Source of the DNA: a virus
Length of the DNA: 64,000 bases
Direction: 5' to 3' (one strand)
Virus record (IMG/VR): IMGVR_UViG_3300017989_000003
Span: 62,001 to 126,000 of that record
Under the pieces are notes generated by a model. It saw only the letters and a program-made list of their open reading frames with translations. It had not been told where the DNA came from and ran no database searches. The position numbers and the translations under genes are program-made. Below are positions 1,463 through 62,006 of the stretch, one piece after another (position 1 is the first letter of the stretch; every line of letters begins with the position of its first letter).

Positions 1463-2238
1463 CACTAGATATACCTCTTACACCTGATGAGATAAAATTG
1501 GCTAAGAAATACGTAGTCCATGGAGAGGCTGCGCTCTTATCTGCTGGTTTAACCCCTAATGAGGTGTCATCATTCCTAAATAGGTATGATATTCAGTATT
1601 TCCTTAAGACTTTATATAAGGATTTCGAATTTAAGGACTCGAGATGGGAAAGGGTACAATTTTATGCGCTTAGCGAGCTAGAGAAGTTAATGGCTCAAGC
1701 TTTGTCAGTTATAGCTAGGTCTTTAATGGGCATAACATCAGACATGACTGATTTACCGCCGTCTGGACAGCAGTATAAGGCTGCTGTAGACTTACTGGAT
1801 AGGTTAGGCGTTAAAGTTAACCAGCAACCTGCTAACAATCAGGAGAATCCAACTATTGCCCTAAACAGTATTAATGTGAATATAAGCGAAGACATAGATT
1901 CAGTGTCTAGAGAGAGAATACTGACGATGGTTGATATGTTCGTCGGTGGGGCAGATAAAGTTGTTAGTACAGACGATGACGTTACGCGTTCGGTAAATGT
2001 AAAAAAGTTACCTATGGTTGATGATTTACCTGAAGCGCGCGATAGATTGAAAGATTTACATGTGAGGAAAAGTTCAAATGGCGGAAAACCAGAAAAAATC
2101 AAAAAAGAAAAAAAGCTCGAAAAACGAAATGTTCGAAAAAGACCCTCTTCTAAAGATAACGAACCTAAAAACGACAAAAAACGTAGGGGAAGTAAACCTA
2201 GCAAAAAAACTATACCAGGAACATCTACACAAAAGTAG
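1459..2238 (+). CDS. Probable terminase small subunit
   Basis: About 259 residues, helical N-terminal half and a very basic lysine-rich tail. It sits directly before the large terminase and overlaps it by about 160 bp. Small terminase subunits recognise phage DNA and feed it to the large subunit, and position plus size are the main argument. No specific sequence motif was recognised. Start is the ATG in the ATGA overlap. Confidence 0.5.
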   Translation: MTLDIPLTPDEIKLAKKYVVHGEAALLSAGLTPNEVSSFLNRYDIQYFLKTLYKDFEFKDSRWERVQFYALSELEKLMAQALSVIARSLMGITSDMTDLPPSGQQYKAAVDLLDRLGVKVNQQPANNQENPTIALNSINVNISEDIDSVSRERILTMVDMFVGGADKVVSTDDDVTRSVNVKKLPMVDDLPEARDRLKDLHVRKSSNGGKPEKIKKEKKLEKRNVRKRPSSKDNEPKNDKKRRGSKPSKKTIPGTSTQK

Positions 2239-5200
2239 GAAGTTCTTTGATTCATTGTCACCTAATGAACAGAAAGTAGCCTTAGAGATATTTAATGAGT
2301 TACGTAGTAATGACGGTGATAGTCCGTTATATGACCATATCTGGGAACTTGATTACATCGAAAAGCCTGTACCCATATGGAAATTTTTAGAAGATGACTT
2401 TTATGCTGGTTGGATAGTTCCTGACTTATACCCTAAATGGCGTGAGATGCTAGAAGAGATATTTGCGCCTGGTTCACAATATTATGAAGTTATTCTAGGT
2501 GGCTCTATTGGTTCTGGAAAGACTACTAGTGCTGCTATTGCATACGTTTATTTACTCTATAGGTTAACCTGCCTTAGAAACCCAGCTAAGTATTATAACC
2601 TTGTGGAACGTTCCAGAATTGTTTTTGGAGTGTACTCAATGACTAAACGTCTTGTAGCTGACGTTGGTTATGGGCGTATAAGGGCTTTTATTGAGAGAAT
2701 GCCATATTTTAGGACTAAATTTCCACATGACCATAGAATACTACAAAAAGTTAATTTCAAGAAAGCTGATGTATCAGTGGTTTATGGTTGTGTATCTGAA
2801 GGCACTAAGATAGCTACACCCTGCGGTGATGTCGCGGTAGAACAACTAGCTAATACGTCCAGTGAGGTACTGACATCATATGGTAGCGACGTTTTCTCGA
2901 GTGAGTATAAAGGCGTTAAGTACTCAGGTGTAAAAAAATGCTTGGAAGTAATAACTGAAACAGGTGACAGCCTTGTTTGTAGTTACGACCATAAATTTAT
3001 AGTAGAGGGTTCAAATGGAAGTTACATTAGAAAAAAAGCAGGCGAACTCAAAGAAGGTGAAGAAGTGTTCGTGCTGCGCGAAATTGATGCCAATAACCGA
3101 GTTCTACATGAATCGCGGAAAACCTTTTTCACAATGCAAGGAATGTGTGAAGAAGAAAAGCAACAAGAGATACCACAATACAAAAAAGTGCAAGGACAAG
3201 AAAGCACACTCGGTAACAGAGGGAACGAAGAAGTGCTCAAAATGCGGTGTGGTAAAACCAGTAAGCGAGTTCGGAACTCGAGTTGTAAAATTAGTGAATT
3301 CAGAAAAAAGATACCTAAGAGGCAATTGCAAAGAGTGCGATGCGGAATTTTCCAGGAAATGGGCGAGCAAGAACAGGGAGAAAAAGAAAAAGAAACGTCA
3401 AACGGAAGAAGGGAGAGAATACGACCGAAAAATCTGTGCGAATTACTACAAGAAGAACCGAGAGAAAATTCTAGCGGAAAAGGCTCGCCCAGAGAACAGG
3501 AAACATATAAATGCCCGGCAGCGAAAATGGAGAGCAAAGAATCCGGAGAAACTCAAGGAATACAGGAAAAAATGGAAGGAAAAGCATCCGGAACGCACGC
3601 AGCGAATTTTAATGTTACGTCACCAACGACGGAAATCACGGAAGAAGAATGTAGAGTTTACCCTAACAGAAAAAGACGTTGCATTTATGATGGGTTATTT
3701 TGGTTATTCTTGTGTTTATTGTGGAAAGGATATAAGCAAGTATTCTACCATAGACCATATTATTCCTGTAGCAAAAGGCGGAGGGACAACTCCTCAAAAC
3801 ATAGTTCCTTGTTGCAGGAAATGCAACAGCAGGAAATATACTCGGAATCTGGAGGAGTTTGTAGAAGATTTTCCGAATGGGAAAAAAATATACCAAAAAA
3901 TTATGAGGTATATAAAACATGTATCAAATCTATAACTGATGTTGGGTATAGAAAAACATATGATGTTGTAGAAGTTCCTAAGACGCATAGCGTTTTTACA
4001 AATAATATATTAACCTCAAATTCCCAGGAATTTCATGTGCTCGGGCAGGACGTTTTTTCCATGTACATGGACGAAGTAAACTTTATGCAAGATAAAGTGA
4101 CTGCGCCAAATAAAGCTGCTAGTATGTCAGAGGAGTTAGGGCAAGCTCAGGAAATTTACAATGCTGCTAGAAGTCGTATTAAATCCAGATACATGCGTCC
4201 AGGGGGTTATGTTCCTGGTATGACCTTTCTACTGTCGTCTAAAACTAGCAAGCACTCATTTCTGGAAAGACATGTTCAAAAAGTTAGACATGAGATAGAA
4301 GAAAAGAAAGTGTTCTTAGCTGAGTATGCATTGTGGGAGGTTAAGCCCCAGTCACTATATGTAAAACCTAAGTTTAGAGTACAGTTAGGAAATGCGCTGC
4401 ATCCTAGTAGGATATTAGAGGAATACGAAACTCACAAAGATGGCACTGAGGTCATTGAAGTACCTGGGGAATTCAAAGAAGATTTTGAGCGAAATACCGA
4501 ACGTGCTCTTAGGGAAATAGCTGGAAGAGCTACTGTAGGAATATCACCACTTTTCCGAATAAAAGAACCGATTATTAAGTGTGTAGATGGGCGTAAACAC
4601 CCATTTACACAGGATATAATTAAAATTTCTATTTATTCTGACATTGAAATAGTGGACTACCTTATGGTAAATGAGCTGTTTCATGTGAAAGACTCTGATT
4701 ATGTTCCACGTTTGAATCCTGGAAGTCCAAGAGTTGTACATTTGGATTTGTCGCGCAAAAAGGATGCTGCTGGATTCTGCATGGGTCATATAGGCGGATT
4801 GCGCGAAGTTAAAAAGATGCGCTATGATAACACATATTATATCGACAAAGAGCCTATGATTGTCATTGACATTATTATGGCTATTAAGTTATTAGGAGAG
4901 GGCGAGATTGACTTCTCTAAAATCAGGGCTTTTATTATAGCACTTAAGGAGTATGGGTATCCAATAACTCATGTGACGGCTGATAAATACCAATCGGCTG
5001 ATACCCTTCAGATATTCTCGAAGTTGGGATACAAGACAGCGTTTTTGTCTGTAGACGAACGCCCTGAGCCATATCATTATACTAGGCAGGCGTTTGTTGA
5101 GGATAGAATACGAATATACGACTATCCATTATTAATAAGGGAACTGATAGACCTTGAGGAGGATTTGGATAGTGGTGTTATAGACCATCCTAACGTAGCA

Positions 5201-5500
5201 AGTGACGGTTCTGTTGGGTCTAAAGATACGTCTGACGCATTAGCAGGAGTTGTGTACACACTCATGAACGAAAAGAGTGTAATGAAGGGGGCAACTGTTA
5301 CTAATTTAACTTCAGTATCTTTAGCAGAATCTACCCCAACGTCTTCTCCTAATAAAACTGATTTGATAACTGTCCGTGGTGAAATGAAAATTTCTTTAGA
5401 CCATATGGCAGATGAAGTGATAAAATACATTAACCTACATAAAAGTTCTAACTCATTATTCGAGGGGTTACAAGATGCCGATGACAACAAAAAAGGCTAG
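2078..5500 (+). CDS. terL: Terminase large subunit interrupted by an intein
   Basis: DNA-packaging motor ATPase and nuclease. Walker A GGSIGSGKT is at residues 141-149. The Walker B region YMDEVN lies soon after the intein, at about residues 660-670. The C-terminal nuclease half shows acidic positions in LDLSRKKDAAGF, TADKYQSAD and SKDTSDALAG. A 411-residue intein (residues 238-648) lies between Walker A and Walker B, leaving a 729-residue spliced protein. The start at 2078 has GAGG upstream and overlaps the preceding gene. A later Met at 2129 is possible. The portal gene overlaps the 3' end. Confidence 0.93.
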   Translation: MAENQKKSKKKKSSKNEMFEKDPLLKITNLKTTKNVGEVNLAKKLYQEHLHKSRKFFDSLSPNEQKVALEIFNELRSNDGDSPLYDHIWELDYIEKPVPIWKFLEDDFYAGWIVPDLYPKWREMLEEIFAPGSQYYEVILGGSIGSGKTTSAAIAYVYLLYRLTCLRNPAKYYNLVERSRIVFGVYSMTKRLVADVGYGRIRAFIERMPYFRTKFPHDHRILQKVNFKKADVSVVYGCVSEGTKIATPCGDVAVEQLANTSSEVLTSYGSDVFSSEYKGVKYSGVKKCLEVITETGDSLVCSYDHKFIVEGSNGSYIRKKAGELKEGEEVFVLREIDANNRVLHESRKTFFTMQGMCEEEKQQEIPQYKKVQGQESTLGNRGNEEVLKMRCGKTSKRVRNSSCKISEFRKKIPKRQLQRVRCGIFQEMGEQEQGEKEKETSNGRRERIRPKNLCELLQEEPRENSSGKGSPREQETYKCPAAKMESKESGETQGIQEKMEGKASGTHAANFNVTSPTTEITEEECRVYPNRKRRCIYDGLFWLFLCLLWKGYKQVFYHRPYYSCSKRRRDNSSKHSSLLQEMQQQEIYSESGGVCRRFSEWEKNIPKNYEVYKTCIKSITDVGYRKTYDVVEVPKTHSVFTNNILTSNSQEFHVLGQDVFSMYMDEVNFMQDKVTAPNKAASMSEELGQAQEIYNAARSRIKSRYMRPGGYVPGMTFLLSSKTSKHSFLERHVQKVRHEIEEKKVFLAEYALWEVKPQSLYVKPKFRVQLGNALHPSRILEEYETHKDGTEVIEVPGEFKEDFERNTERALREIAGRATVGISPLFRIKEPIIKCVDGRKHPFTQDIIKISIYSDIEIVDYLMVNELFHVKDSDYVPRLNPGSPRVVHLDLSRKKDAAGFCMGHIGGLREVKKMRYDNTYYIDKEPMIVIDIIMAIKLLGEGEIDFSKIRAFIIALKEYGYPITHVTADKYQSADTLQIFSKLGYKTAFLSVDERPEPYHYTRQAFVEDRIRIYDYPLLIRELIDLEEDLDSGVIDHPNVASDGSVGSKDTSDALAGVVYTLMNEKSVMKGATVTNLTSVSLAESTPTSSPNKTDLITVRGEMKISLDHMADEVIKYINLHKSSNSLFEGLQDADDNKKG
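2789..4021 (+). other. Intein within TerL
   Basis: The intein begins at a cysteine (codon 2789-2791) in the typical block A context CVSEGTKIATPCGD. It has a block B-like stretch GDSLVCSYDHKFIV and ends with a block F/G-like region (TYDVVEVPKTHSVFTNN) with terminal Asn (4019-4021) followed by Ser as the first C-extein residue. The region between these blocks is not a normal endonuclease domain in this frame. It is arginine-, glutamate- and lysine-rich filler that stays free of stops because it is the shifted reading of a nested HNH gene. Splicing is predicted, not shown. The usual penultimate His is replaced by Ser. Confidence 0.9.
3015..3935 (+). CDS. HNH homing endonuclease nested out of frame in the intein
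   Basis: This 306-residue frame lies entirely inside the TerL intein DNA but is shifted relative to it. It has two N-terminal zinc-finger modules (CSCC/CKEC and CSKCGVVKPVSEF/CKEC), a basic helical region with KNPEK-type repeats, and a C-terminal HNH domain from about residue 233 (CVYCGKD, DHIIPVAKGG, CRKCN). The ATG has an AGAGGG ribosome site. This looks like a complete free-standing homing endonuclease that would cut intein-less terminase alleles. The intein splicing blocks lie just outside it. Confidence 0.9.
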   Translation: MEVTLEKKQANSKKVKKCSCCAKLMPITEFYMNRGKPFSQCKECVKKKSNKRYHNTKKCKDKKAHSVTEGTKKCSKCGVVKPVSEFGTRVVKLVNSEKRYLRGNCKECDAEFSRKWASKNREKKKKKRQTEEGREYDRKICANYYKKNREKILAEKARPENRKHINARQRKWRAKNPEKLKEYRKKWKEKHPERTQRILMLRHQRRKSRKKNVEFTLTEKDVAFMMGYFGYSCVYCGKDISKYSTIDHIIPVAKGGGTTPQNIVPCCRKCNSRKYTRNLEEFVEDFPNGKKIYQKIMRYIKHVSNL

Positions 5501-7130
5501 GCTAGCCGCATTATTTGGAATTGACTCCCATGTTACTAGACCTAAGGAAGAGCGACCAGTTGCTGAGTCTGACGGTGATGACTATGCCTATGGTAGGCTA
5601 AGAGGTGACATTCTCCAGATGATACTTCGAATGCCGCGCAGTAGAACTGACAGGTATGCTTTGTTGGACGACCTGGATGAGGGTATTGCCGCGTCTGTAT
5701 TAGATTTATATACTGAAGAAACAACCCAGCCAATTCGCGAGTCTAAGCCTCAAGTTCCCATAATAATTAAGAGTGAGAACAAAGCTATTGAAAAGGAAGG
5801 AAATGCACTGCTTAATAAACTTGGCATATCCAGTAATCCTCAGCCGTTAATGCGTGTTATATGCAAGTACGGTGATTTGTTTTACAGGTTGTTTTATAGT
5901 GGCGAGAAAGGCATAGAGTACGGATACATTATAAAAAATCCAGGGACAGTAAGTCGGGAGGAAAGTGACCAGAAGGTTCTAACTGGTTTTAAGCAGGTTG
6001 GTGTTCGTTTCGAAAAGGGTAAAGAACAATCAGACCCGTGGGATTATGTCCACTTTGCTAATTTATTGCATCCAGAGAATTTTCCGTATGGTACGGCAAT
6101 CCTTAGTAATTCATATCGTTCTTTGCGGCAGATAATACTATCTGAGGACTCGGTGTTGCTTTACCGTCTTATCCGTCATCCTGACAGATTGTATCATGTT
6201 ATTGATACAGGAGATGCTGACGAAGTTGAACAAAGAAGACAGTTACGTCGGTACGCTTCGGACTTTCGTCGAAGTCAGAATATTAATCCGTCGGTAGGCA
6301 CCATGACGCATAGACATGCGCCTATGACTCCATTGGAAGATATATTTATCGCGATAGGTAACCAGAACGTTAATACGAAAATAGATAAGTTGCCTGGGTC
6401 TAGTAATGCCTTTGAGGTATATGACCTTGATTACTACATTAATAAATTTTTCTCTGAGGTTAGAGTACCAAAAGCGTTTTTAGGCTTTGAAGGTGACATT
6501 AACGCCAGAGCGACATTAACTAGTCAGTCAATTAGATTTGCGAGAGCGGTTATTCACATGCAGTCAGTGTTAAAAAAGGGTATCAAGCGATTGCTTATGA
6601 TACATTATACTCTTTTGACTAAGAGTAATACTGACCAAACGTACAAGACTGACGAAGATGGCTCTAACTTTAATATAGAAATGTGTTATACGTCAGGGCT
6701 AGCTGAGCTTGATTGGATTAGTCTGATGTTACAACGTTCTGAATACGCCCAGACTCTTTATGCGTACGCTGACAATCCATATATCGATAACCATGCTATG
6801 CTGAATTACCTTTTCAGGGATATACTAAAGTTGAAAGAAGATGACATTAGTAAGATTGTGCTGAAATCTCCTGTATACCCAGTGCCGCCTAAAGAACAAT
6901 ATCCTAACATATCTAATATGCGTAAGGCTCGAGTGAAGGGTGTTACACCTCAGGAACAGGAATATGCCAAAGCTATAGTAAAGTCGATTCCATTCAATAG
7001 CTTTGTAGATGAAATACAAGCGTATCTTGAGGACGTAAAACAATTGCATATTGAATCCAATAGACCAGTTACGCCCATTGACCCACGTTCTGCTTTACCT
7101 AATAATAGTGGTAGTAAAAGTGGGCGGTAG
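5475..7130 (+). CDS. Portal protein
   Basis: A 551-residue protein directly after and overlapping the large terminase. Features recall T4 gp20-type portals: a middle region ending VYDLDYYINKFFSEVRVPKAFLGFEGDINARATLTSQS, read here as two motifs (YYINKFFSEVRVPKAFLG and NARATLTSQ), which matches the conserved region of that family. The portal forms the ring through which DNA enters and leaves the capsid. Its last ten bases overlap the tRNA-Ile gene. Confidence 0.85.
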   Translation: MPMTTKKARLAALFGIDSHVTRPKEERPVAESDGDDYAYGRLRGDILQMILRMPRSRTDRYALLDDLDEGIAASVLDLYTEETTQPIRESKPQVPIIIKSENKAIEKEGNALLNKLGISSNPQPLMRVICKYGDLFYRLFYSGEKGIEYGYIIKNPGTVSREESDQKVLTGFKQVGVRFEKGKEQSDPWDYVHFANLLHPENFPYGTAILSNSYRSLRQIILSEDSVLLYRLIRHPDRLYHVIDTGDADEVEQRRQLRRYASDFRRSQNINPSVGTMTHRHAPMTPLEDIFIAIGNQNVNTKIDKLPGSSNAFEVYDLDYYINKFFSEVRVPKAFLGFEGDINARATLTSQSIRFARAVIHMQSVLKKGIKRLLMIHYTLLTKSNTDQTYKTDEDGSNFNIEMCYTSGLAELDWISLMLQRSEYAQTLYAYADNPYIDNHAMLNYLFRDILKLKEDDISKIVLKSPVYPVPPKEQYPNISNMRKARVKGVTPQEQEYAKAIVKSIPFNSFVDEIQAYLEDVKQLHIESNRPVTPIDPRSALPNNSGSKSGR

Positions 7131-10117: not shown

Positions 10118-10175
10118 TGTAGTAGTATCCAATAAACACTACTACACCGTTACCGGTTGCAAAATACCCCTTGAC
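10118..10175. repeat. ACCGGT element, copy 2, with upstream hairpin
   Basis: An inverted repeat GTGTAGTAGT...ACTACTACAC is followed by the 28-bp core (10148-10175) ending TTGAC. The start codon of the next gene is only 20 bases away, so here the TTGAC cannot be a -35 box for that gene. Confidence 0.8.
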
Positions 10176-33449: not shown

Positions 33450-33504
33450 TGTGTAGTATACAAAATACTACTACACCGTTACTGGTTGCAAAATACCCCT
33501 TGAC
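33450..33504. repeat. ACCGGT element, copy 3 (ACTGGT variant) with hairpin
   Basis: GTAGTAT/ATACTAC stem then the core (33477-33504) with one substitution in ACCGGT. It lies just before the gene at 33531. Confidence 0.78.
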
Positions 33505-38603: not shown

Positions 38604-38632
38604 GTCAAGGGGTTTTTTGCAACCGGTAACGG
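38604..38632 (-). repeat. ACCGGT element, copy 5
   Basis: Core in reverse orientation with one base change (AAAAAACCCC). A related upstream sequence (GTACTACCCCCAAAACC on the minus strand) and ACCACAACAT match copy 3. Confidence 0.78.
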
Positions 38633-57575: not shown

Positions 57576-57617
57576 GTCAAGGGGTAATTCGTTACCGGTT
57601 GCAAAATACCCCTTGAC
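57576..57617. repeat. 42-bp ACCGGT element, copy 4
   Basis: Exact reverse complement of 673-714. As read with the leftward genes it has the same orientation as copy 1 has with the rightward gene. Confidence 0.88.
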
Positions 57618-61935: not shown

Positions 61936-62006
61936 TAGTTTTGAATGGTGGTCAATTACTTAAAGTATAATTTTATTTTACTATGTAACTACTTGGAGAT
62001 TACAAA

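Follow-up and report, generated by a model that had tools for sequence, protein, structure and literature searches.

The terminase gene and its intein

The window, that is, the whole stretch of DNA analysed here, comprises 64,000 nucleotides of a viral sequence (positions 62,001 to 126,000 of the IMG/VR record IMGVR_UViG_3300017989_000003), and all coordinates below are counted from its first letter unless otherwise stated. It contains a terminase large subunit gene (TerL) that forms a single unbroken frame of 1140 aa, open from 2066/2078 to 5500, and this frame includes an intein of 411 codons at 2789-4021. The parts of the TerL frame are the following:

2078-2788, + strand: TerL N-extein, with the Walker A motif GGSIGSGKTT; aligns with intein-free TerLs
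2789-3103, + strand: intein N-half (residues ~1-105), with blocks A and B, Cys1 and SYDH; Pfam Intein_splicing, Pab PolII alignment, confident Hint strands
3113-3865, + strand: intein-frame linker, residues 109-359, predicted to be disordered (AlphaFold)
3896-4021, + strand: intein C-half, with blocks F and G, the His of KTH and Asn411; sequence, alignment and AlphaFold
4022-5500, + strand: TerL C-extein, with Ser+1 and the Walker B motif FSMYMDEVNF; aligned to intein-free TerLs

The insert starts with CVSEGTKI and ends with NNILTSN before a Ser, and it has the features of class 1 inteins, namely Cys1, Asn411 and Ser+1 together with blocks A, B (SYDH), F (KTH) and G and a predicted Hint fold, according to Pfam, alignment, AlphaFold and Foldseek. 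The Pfam Intein_splicing model matched this frame at both ends, spanning the region in between (4e-9), and the Pab PolII intein, whose structure has been solved, aligns to residues 52-100, although with a weak sequence match (E 0.13). In an AlphaFold prediction, for which the intein was supplied with other phage inteins, residues 1-105 and 370-411 adopted a confident Hint fold (pLDDT mostly 80-97) and these ends form by themselves a complete mini-intein, while nearly all of the ~250 residues from 109 to 359 were disordered (pLDDT mostly below 50). The leading Foldseek matches in the PDB were intein and Hedgehog Hint domains, with the Mtu RecA, Ssp DnaB and Npu DnaB inteins at the top. A previous reading made from the sequence alone had proposed splicing blocks at both ends of the insert, with Cys1, the terminal Asn and Ser+1, and its coordinates proved to be exact. 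The penultimate residue of block G is Ser410 (...LTSN) in place of His, which may make Asn cyclisation slower; this His does not define inteins, since some functional ones lack it. A group I or group II intron was rejected, as Rfam gave no match at E<=1. Motifs and predicted structure support a cis-splicing TerL intein of the common type with Cys1, Asn and Ser+1, from which we infer splicing itself.

When the intein was removed in silico, a TerL of 729 aa was obtained, and its junction aligned without insertion to intein-free homologues. The insertion site is a conserved Gly-Ser located just before Walker B, and at this site the gap is 0 in the three nearest IMG/VR relatives (L010, L011 and L117) against 1233 nt here.

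An HNH gene nested in the intein

A second ORF lies inside the intein, in the +1 frame relative to TerL, starting with the ATG at 3015, ending with the TAA at 3935 and encoding 306 aa. The overlap with the TerL/intein frame on the same strand amounts to 921 nt and includes the first ~40 nt of the intein C-half. The features of this second frame are:

3004-3009, + strand: ribosome-binding site (AGAGGG) for the nested gene, 5 nt upstream of its ATG; the same motif is found upstream of a phage gene at 23176
3015-3935, + strand: nested HNH endonuclease gene, 306 aa; ORF, Pfam HNH_5/HNH, PHROG endonuclease VII/HNH, AlphaFold, Foldseek
3062-3085, + strand: dual-coded segment, encoding a Hint strand (EEVFVLRE, intein residues 92-99) and K17-C18-S-C-C21-A-K of zinc finger 1; sequence, AlphaFold of both frames
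3066-3146, + strand: HNH zinc finger 1, CSCC...CKEC; sequence, AlphaFold
3234-3338, + strand: HNH zinc finger 2, CSKC...CKEC, common to the homologues; alignment, AlphaFold
3702-3839, + strand: HNH catalytic core, CVYCG...TIDHIIP...N...CRKCNSRK; Pfam, alignment

The protein consists of two Cys4 fingers, a lysine-rich helical stretch (made in part of repeated modules whose spacing is a multiple of three bases) and the HNH core. Pfam recognised HNH_5 (2e-14) and HNH (2e-13), 24 PHROG families were matched, endonuclease VII and HNH among them, and the AlphaFold model (mean pLDDT 76) contained the zinc fingers, the helices and the HNH core, its best Foldseek match being the Gme HNH nicking endonuclease 4h9d. 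Sequence and predicted structure thus combine an HNH core with DNA-binding fingers, as in HNH homing endonucleases. A TAG at 3003-3005 closes the HNH frame upstream, which is open only from 3006. All this bears out the sequence-only reading, which had described a complete 306-residue HNH protein with two zinc fingers, out of frame and with its own AGAGGG ribosome site.

Most of the aligned HNH homologues have one finger, and several are present in a 450-aa relative (L094). The homologues that were scored are free-standing genes, each of whose other frames contains 4-38 stops. In the 14 viral and 2 genomic loci recovered by a search with the HNH alignment A3, the HNH gene was never nested. A scan of the collected loci for ORFs nested on the same strand turned up other nestings due to chance, for the most part in high-GC loci, and the present gene was the sole nested HNH, with identities judged from the starts of the sequences because a strict motif regex missed even this one.

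Constraint on both frames

Each intein-frame codon is composed of position 3 of an HNH codon plus positions 1-2 of the next one and, because of this offset, a stop can arise in the intein frame only where an HNH codon ending in T precedes AA, AG or GA. At these stop-making sites none of the 77 codons of the HNH gene for which a final T is available ends in T, against 62 of 127 elsewhere in the gene (Fisher 7e-17); the corresponding figures in control genes of the phage were 48% and 45%. When the HNH gene was recoded synonymously with the phage codon usage, the intein frame acquired a mean of 33.8 stops (minimum 18), and when its own synonymous codons were shuffled the mean was 18.2, with none of 20,000 sequences open in either case. 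The third frame has 26 actual stops over the HNH gene. The intein frame is open beyond chance, and the earlier suggestion that both frames are constrained holds.

The intein-frame peptide also differed from stop-free recodings in charge, having fewer K/R (55 vs 74 expected) and more D/E (40 vs 29). This shift comes from the use of G, not A, at the third position before AA and GA codons, the reverse of the habit of the phage, and the third-position effect is seen before GA codons as well (13:13, vs 0.29 in controls). The charge effect is only suggestive of a second constraint, as avoidance of poly-A could account for part of it.

As for how a second frame without stops could have originated, it is possible that the gene grew by duplication of modules that were already stop-free, or that it descends from an element that was already living out of frame. 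Scans of viral contigs with the single sequence and with the TerL alignment recovered no diverged copies of the intein, only a second IMG/VR contig that is 100% identical over 10.5 kb and may not be an independent sample.

Comparison with known systems

The sequence-only reading had also proposed a comparison with terminase inteins of related phages. Related TerLs are empty at this site, and the TerL inteins found at other sites have an in-frame nuclease domain, none, or are split, the domain names in these comparators having been read by eye from the translations and not scanned against a library. LAGLIDADG-type domains are in frame in L027, L083 and the first intein of L035, and the second intein of L035 carries an in-frame HNH. 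The intein of L010, the nearest TerL relative, has no recognisable nuclease and occupies another conserved site (L010:1459-2040; GG|C...VHN|SKDV). The present element shares with class 1 inteins that have an in-frame endonuclease (PI-PfuI and the L027, L035 and L083 TerL inteins) the Hint domain, Cys1, blocks B and F, the Asn and the +1 nucleophile, and also the location of the nuclease between the N and C halves. Unlike in them, the nuclease occupies a different frame, has a start and a stop of its own and lies outside the spliced chain, the middle of the intein frame being disordered.

In the Listeria phage LIS04 (L003) and in the SP15-like L086, TerL is broken up into several ORFs that carry the halves of split inteins, and the nucleases have ORFs of their own. 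Such fractured genes, reportedly described by Dassa et al. in 2009, contain a split intein whose halves flank a free nuclease gene. They resemble our case in having a self-standing nuclease gene within an intein-bearing TerL, but in them the host gene is divided among separate ORFs whereas TerL here is one frame, open at 2078-5500. Group I introns with internal HNH ORFs are also similar, in that the nuclease ORF is independent of the host frame; in contrast, no intron was found here with Rfam and splicing is predicted at the protein level.

The nearest publication describes the ShiLan domain, an HNH that lies out of frame in a phage methylase and is not accompanied by splicing domains (PMC11855218). 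There, and in the Pacc40 gp60 insertion, an HNH is hidden out of frame while the host frame remains open, and the HNH of ShiLan has zinc fingers, as here (PMC11855218). However, neither has splicing domains or a detected ribosome site, whereas the present element has a Hint splicing domain, and their frame relation is the opposite of ours. Applied to the GC-rich ShiLan, our stop test gave 2.7 expected stops and P(open)=0.035, vs ~34 expected here. A literature search, with most subscription papers outside its scope, turned up no splicing intein with an out-of-frame nuclease.

The ribonucleotide reductase of this phage (L091; minus strand, around 140884-141006 of G000:C1) is interrupted by another two inteins; in one of them no nuclease is recognisable, and the other bears an in-frame endonuclease-type domain.

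Discussion

The arrangement could be an artefact if an originally in-frame HNH had been shifted by two compensating sequencing or assembly indels, for instance in the A7 runs located close to the two ends of the HNH ORF (near 3031 and 3884). However, bases 3062-3085 encode both the Hint strand at residues 92-99 and the first cysteines of the zinc finger (CSCC); a single indel point cannot give both and, therefore, a simple indel error would not explain the layout. Codon choice, moreover, strips stops specifically from the intein frame, and the two contigs concur, though perhaps not independently, so that we give this explanation very little credit. Alternatively, the HNH might be expressed out of the TerL frame, as an N-TerL/intein/HNH fusion, through a frameshift or slippage of the transcript, for example at the A7 run shortly after the HNH start (3031-3037). 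This is very unlikely, as the last Hint strand of the N-half would then be lost and the ORF starts with an ATG and a good ribosome site, similar to those of other genes of the phage.

That the HNH homologues examined are free-standing genes and that the two ends of the intein suffice for a complete mini-intein would both fit a recent insertion of a free-standing HNH into a mini-intein, with a second frame open by luck. Such luck is hardly credible when ~34 stops are expected and 0 are present, no recoding out of 20,000 is open and the homologues carry 4-38 stops in their other frames. The nested protein might also be a DNA-packaging partner of TerL and not a homing enzyme: it is co-encoded with TerL, and in HK97 the terminase-adjacent HNH (gp74) acts with the terminase in cos cleavage (PMC10448857). 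We consider this role unlikely, because the HNH is missing at this site in the three closest TerL relatives and its architecture, with several fingers and long helices, is like that of free-standing phage HNH enzymes.

The best reading, and in our opinion a quite probable one, is that of a TerL intein carrying a separately translated, out-of-frame HNH homing nuclease. The HNH gene would occupy the usual position of the endonuclease domain, unfused and in the +1 frame. Ribosomes coming from the TerL start would read the intein frame and convert the HNH segment into an unstructured linker of ~250 residues between the Hint halves, which could still fold together and splice to release the 411-aa intein and the 729-aa TerL. 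Ribosomes initiating at the internal AGAGGG-ATG would produce the 306-aa HNH protein, and this nuclease presumably cuts intein-free terL alleles, leading to the copying of the whole element into them.

The mobility enzyme of an intein has been regarded either as a fused domain or as a gene between split halves (fractured genes), and a nuclease in another frame of the same DNA would represent a third intein architecture. We think it probable, with somewhat more reserve, that this is the first intein to have its homing nuclease translated on its own from an overlapping gene, an arrangement in which the codon choice of the nuclease keeps the splicing frame open, and its peptide apparently less basic, and splicing and mobility are uncoupled at the protein level on shared DNA. 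The long overlap joins two proteins of clear and unrelated identity. It becomes possible to test by what routes mobile inteins acquire nucleases or lose them, whether splicing and cutting restrict one another and how a second frame comes to be free of dozens of stops, and the test of T-ending codons can be applied to all intein databases in search of further hidden nucleases.

Other features of the window

The end of TerL overlaps by 26 nt with a portal gene, T4-like gp20, at 5475-7130. An interspersed conserved element, GTTACCGGTTGCAAAATACCCCTTGAC, is found at 673-714, 10148-10175, 33477-33504, 38604-38631 and 57576-57617, mostly in intergenic positions. It contains a TTGACA-like hexamer, is palindromic at 673-714 and 57576-57617, and is possibly a repeated operator or promoter.
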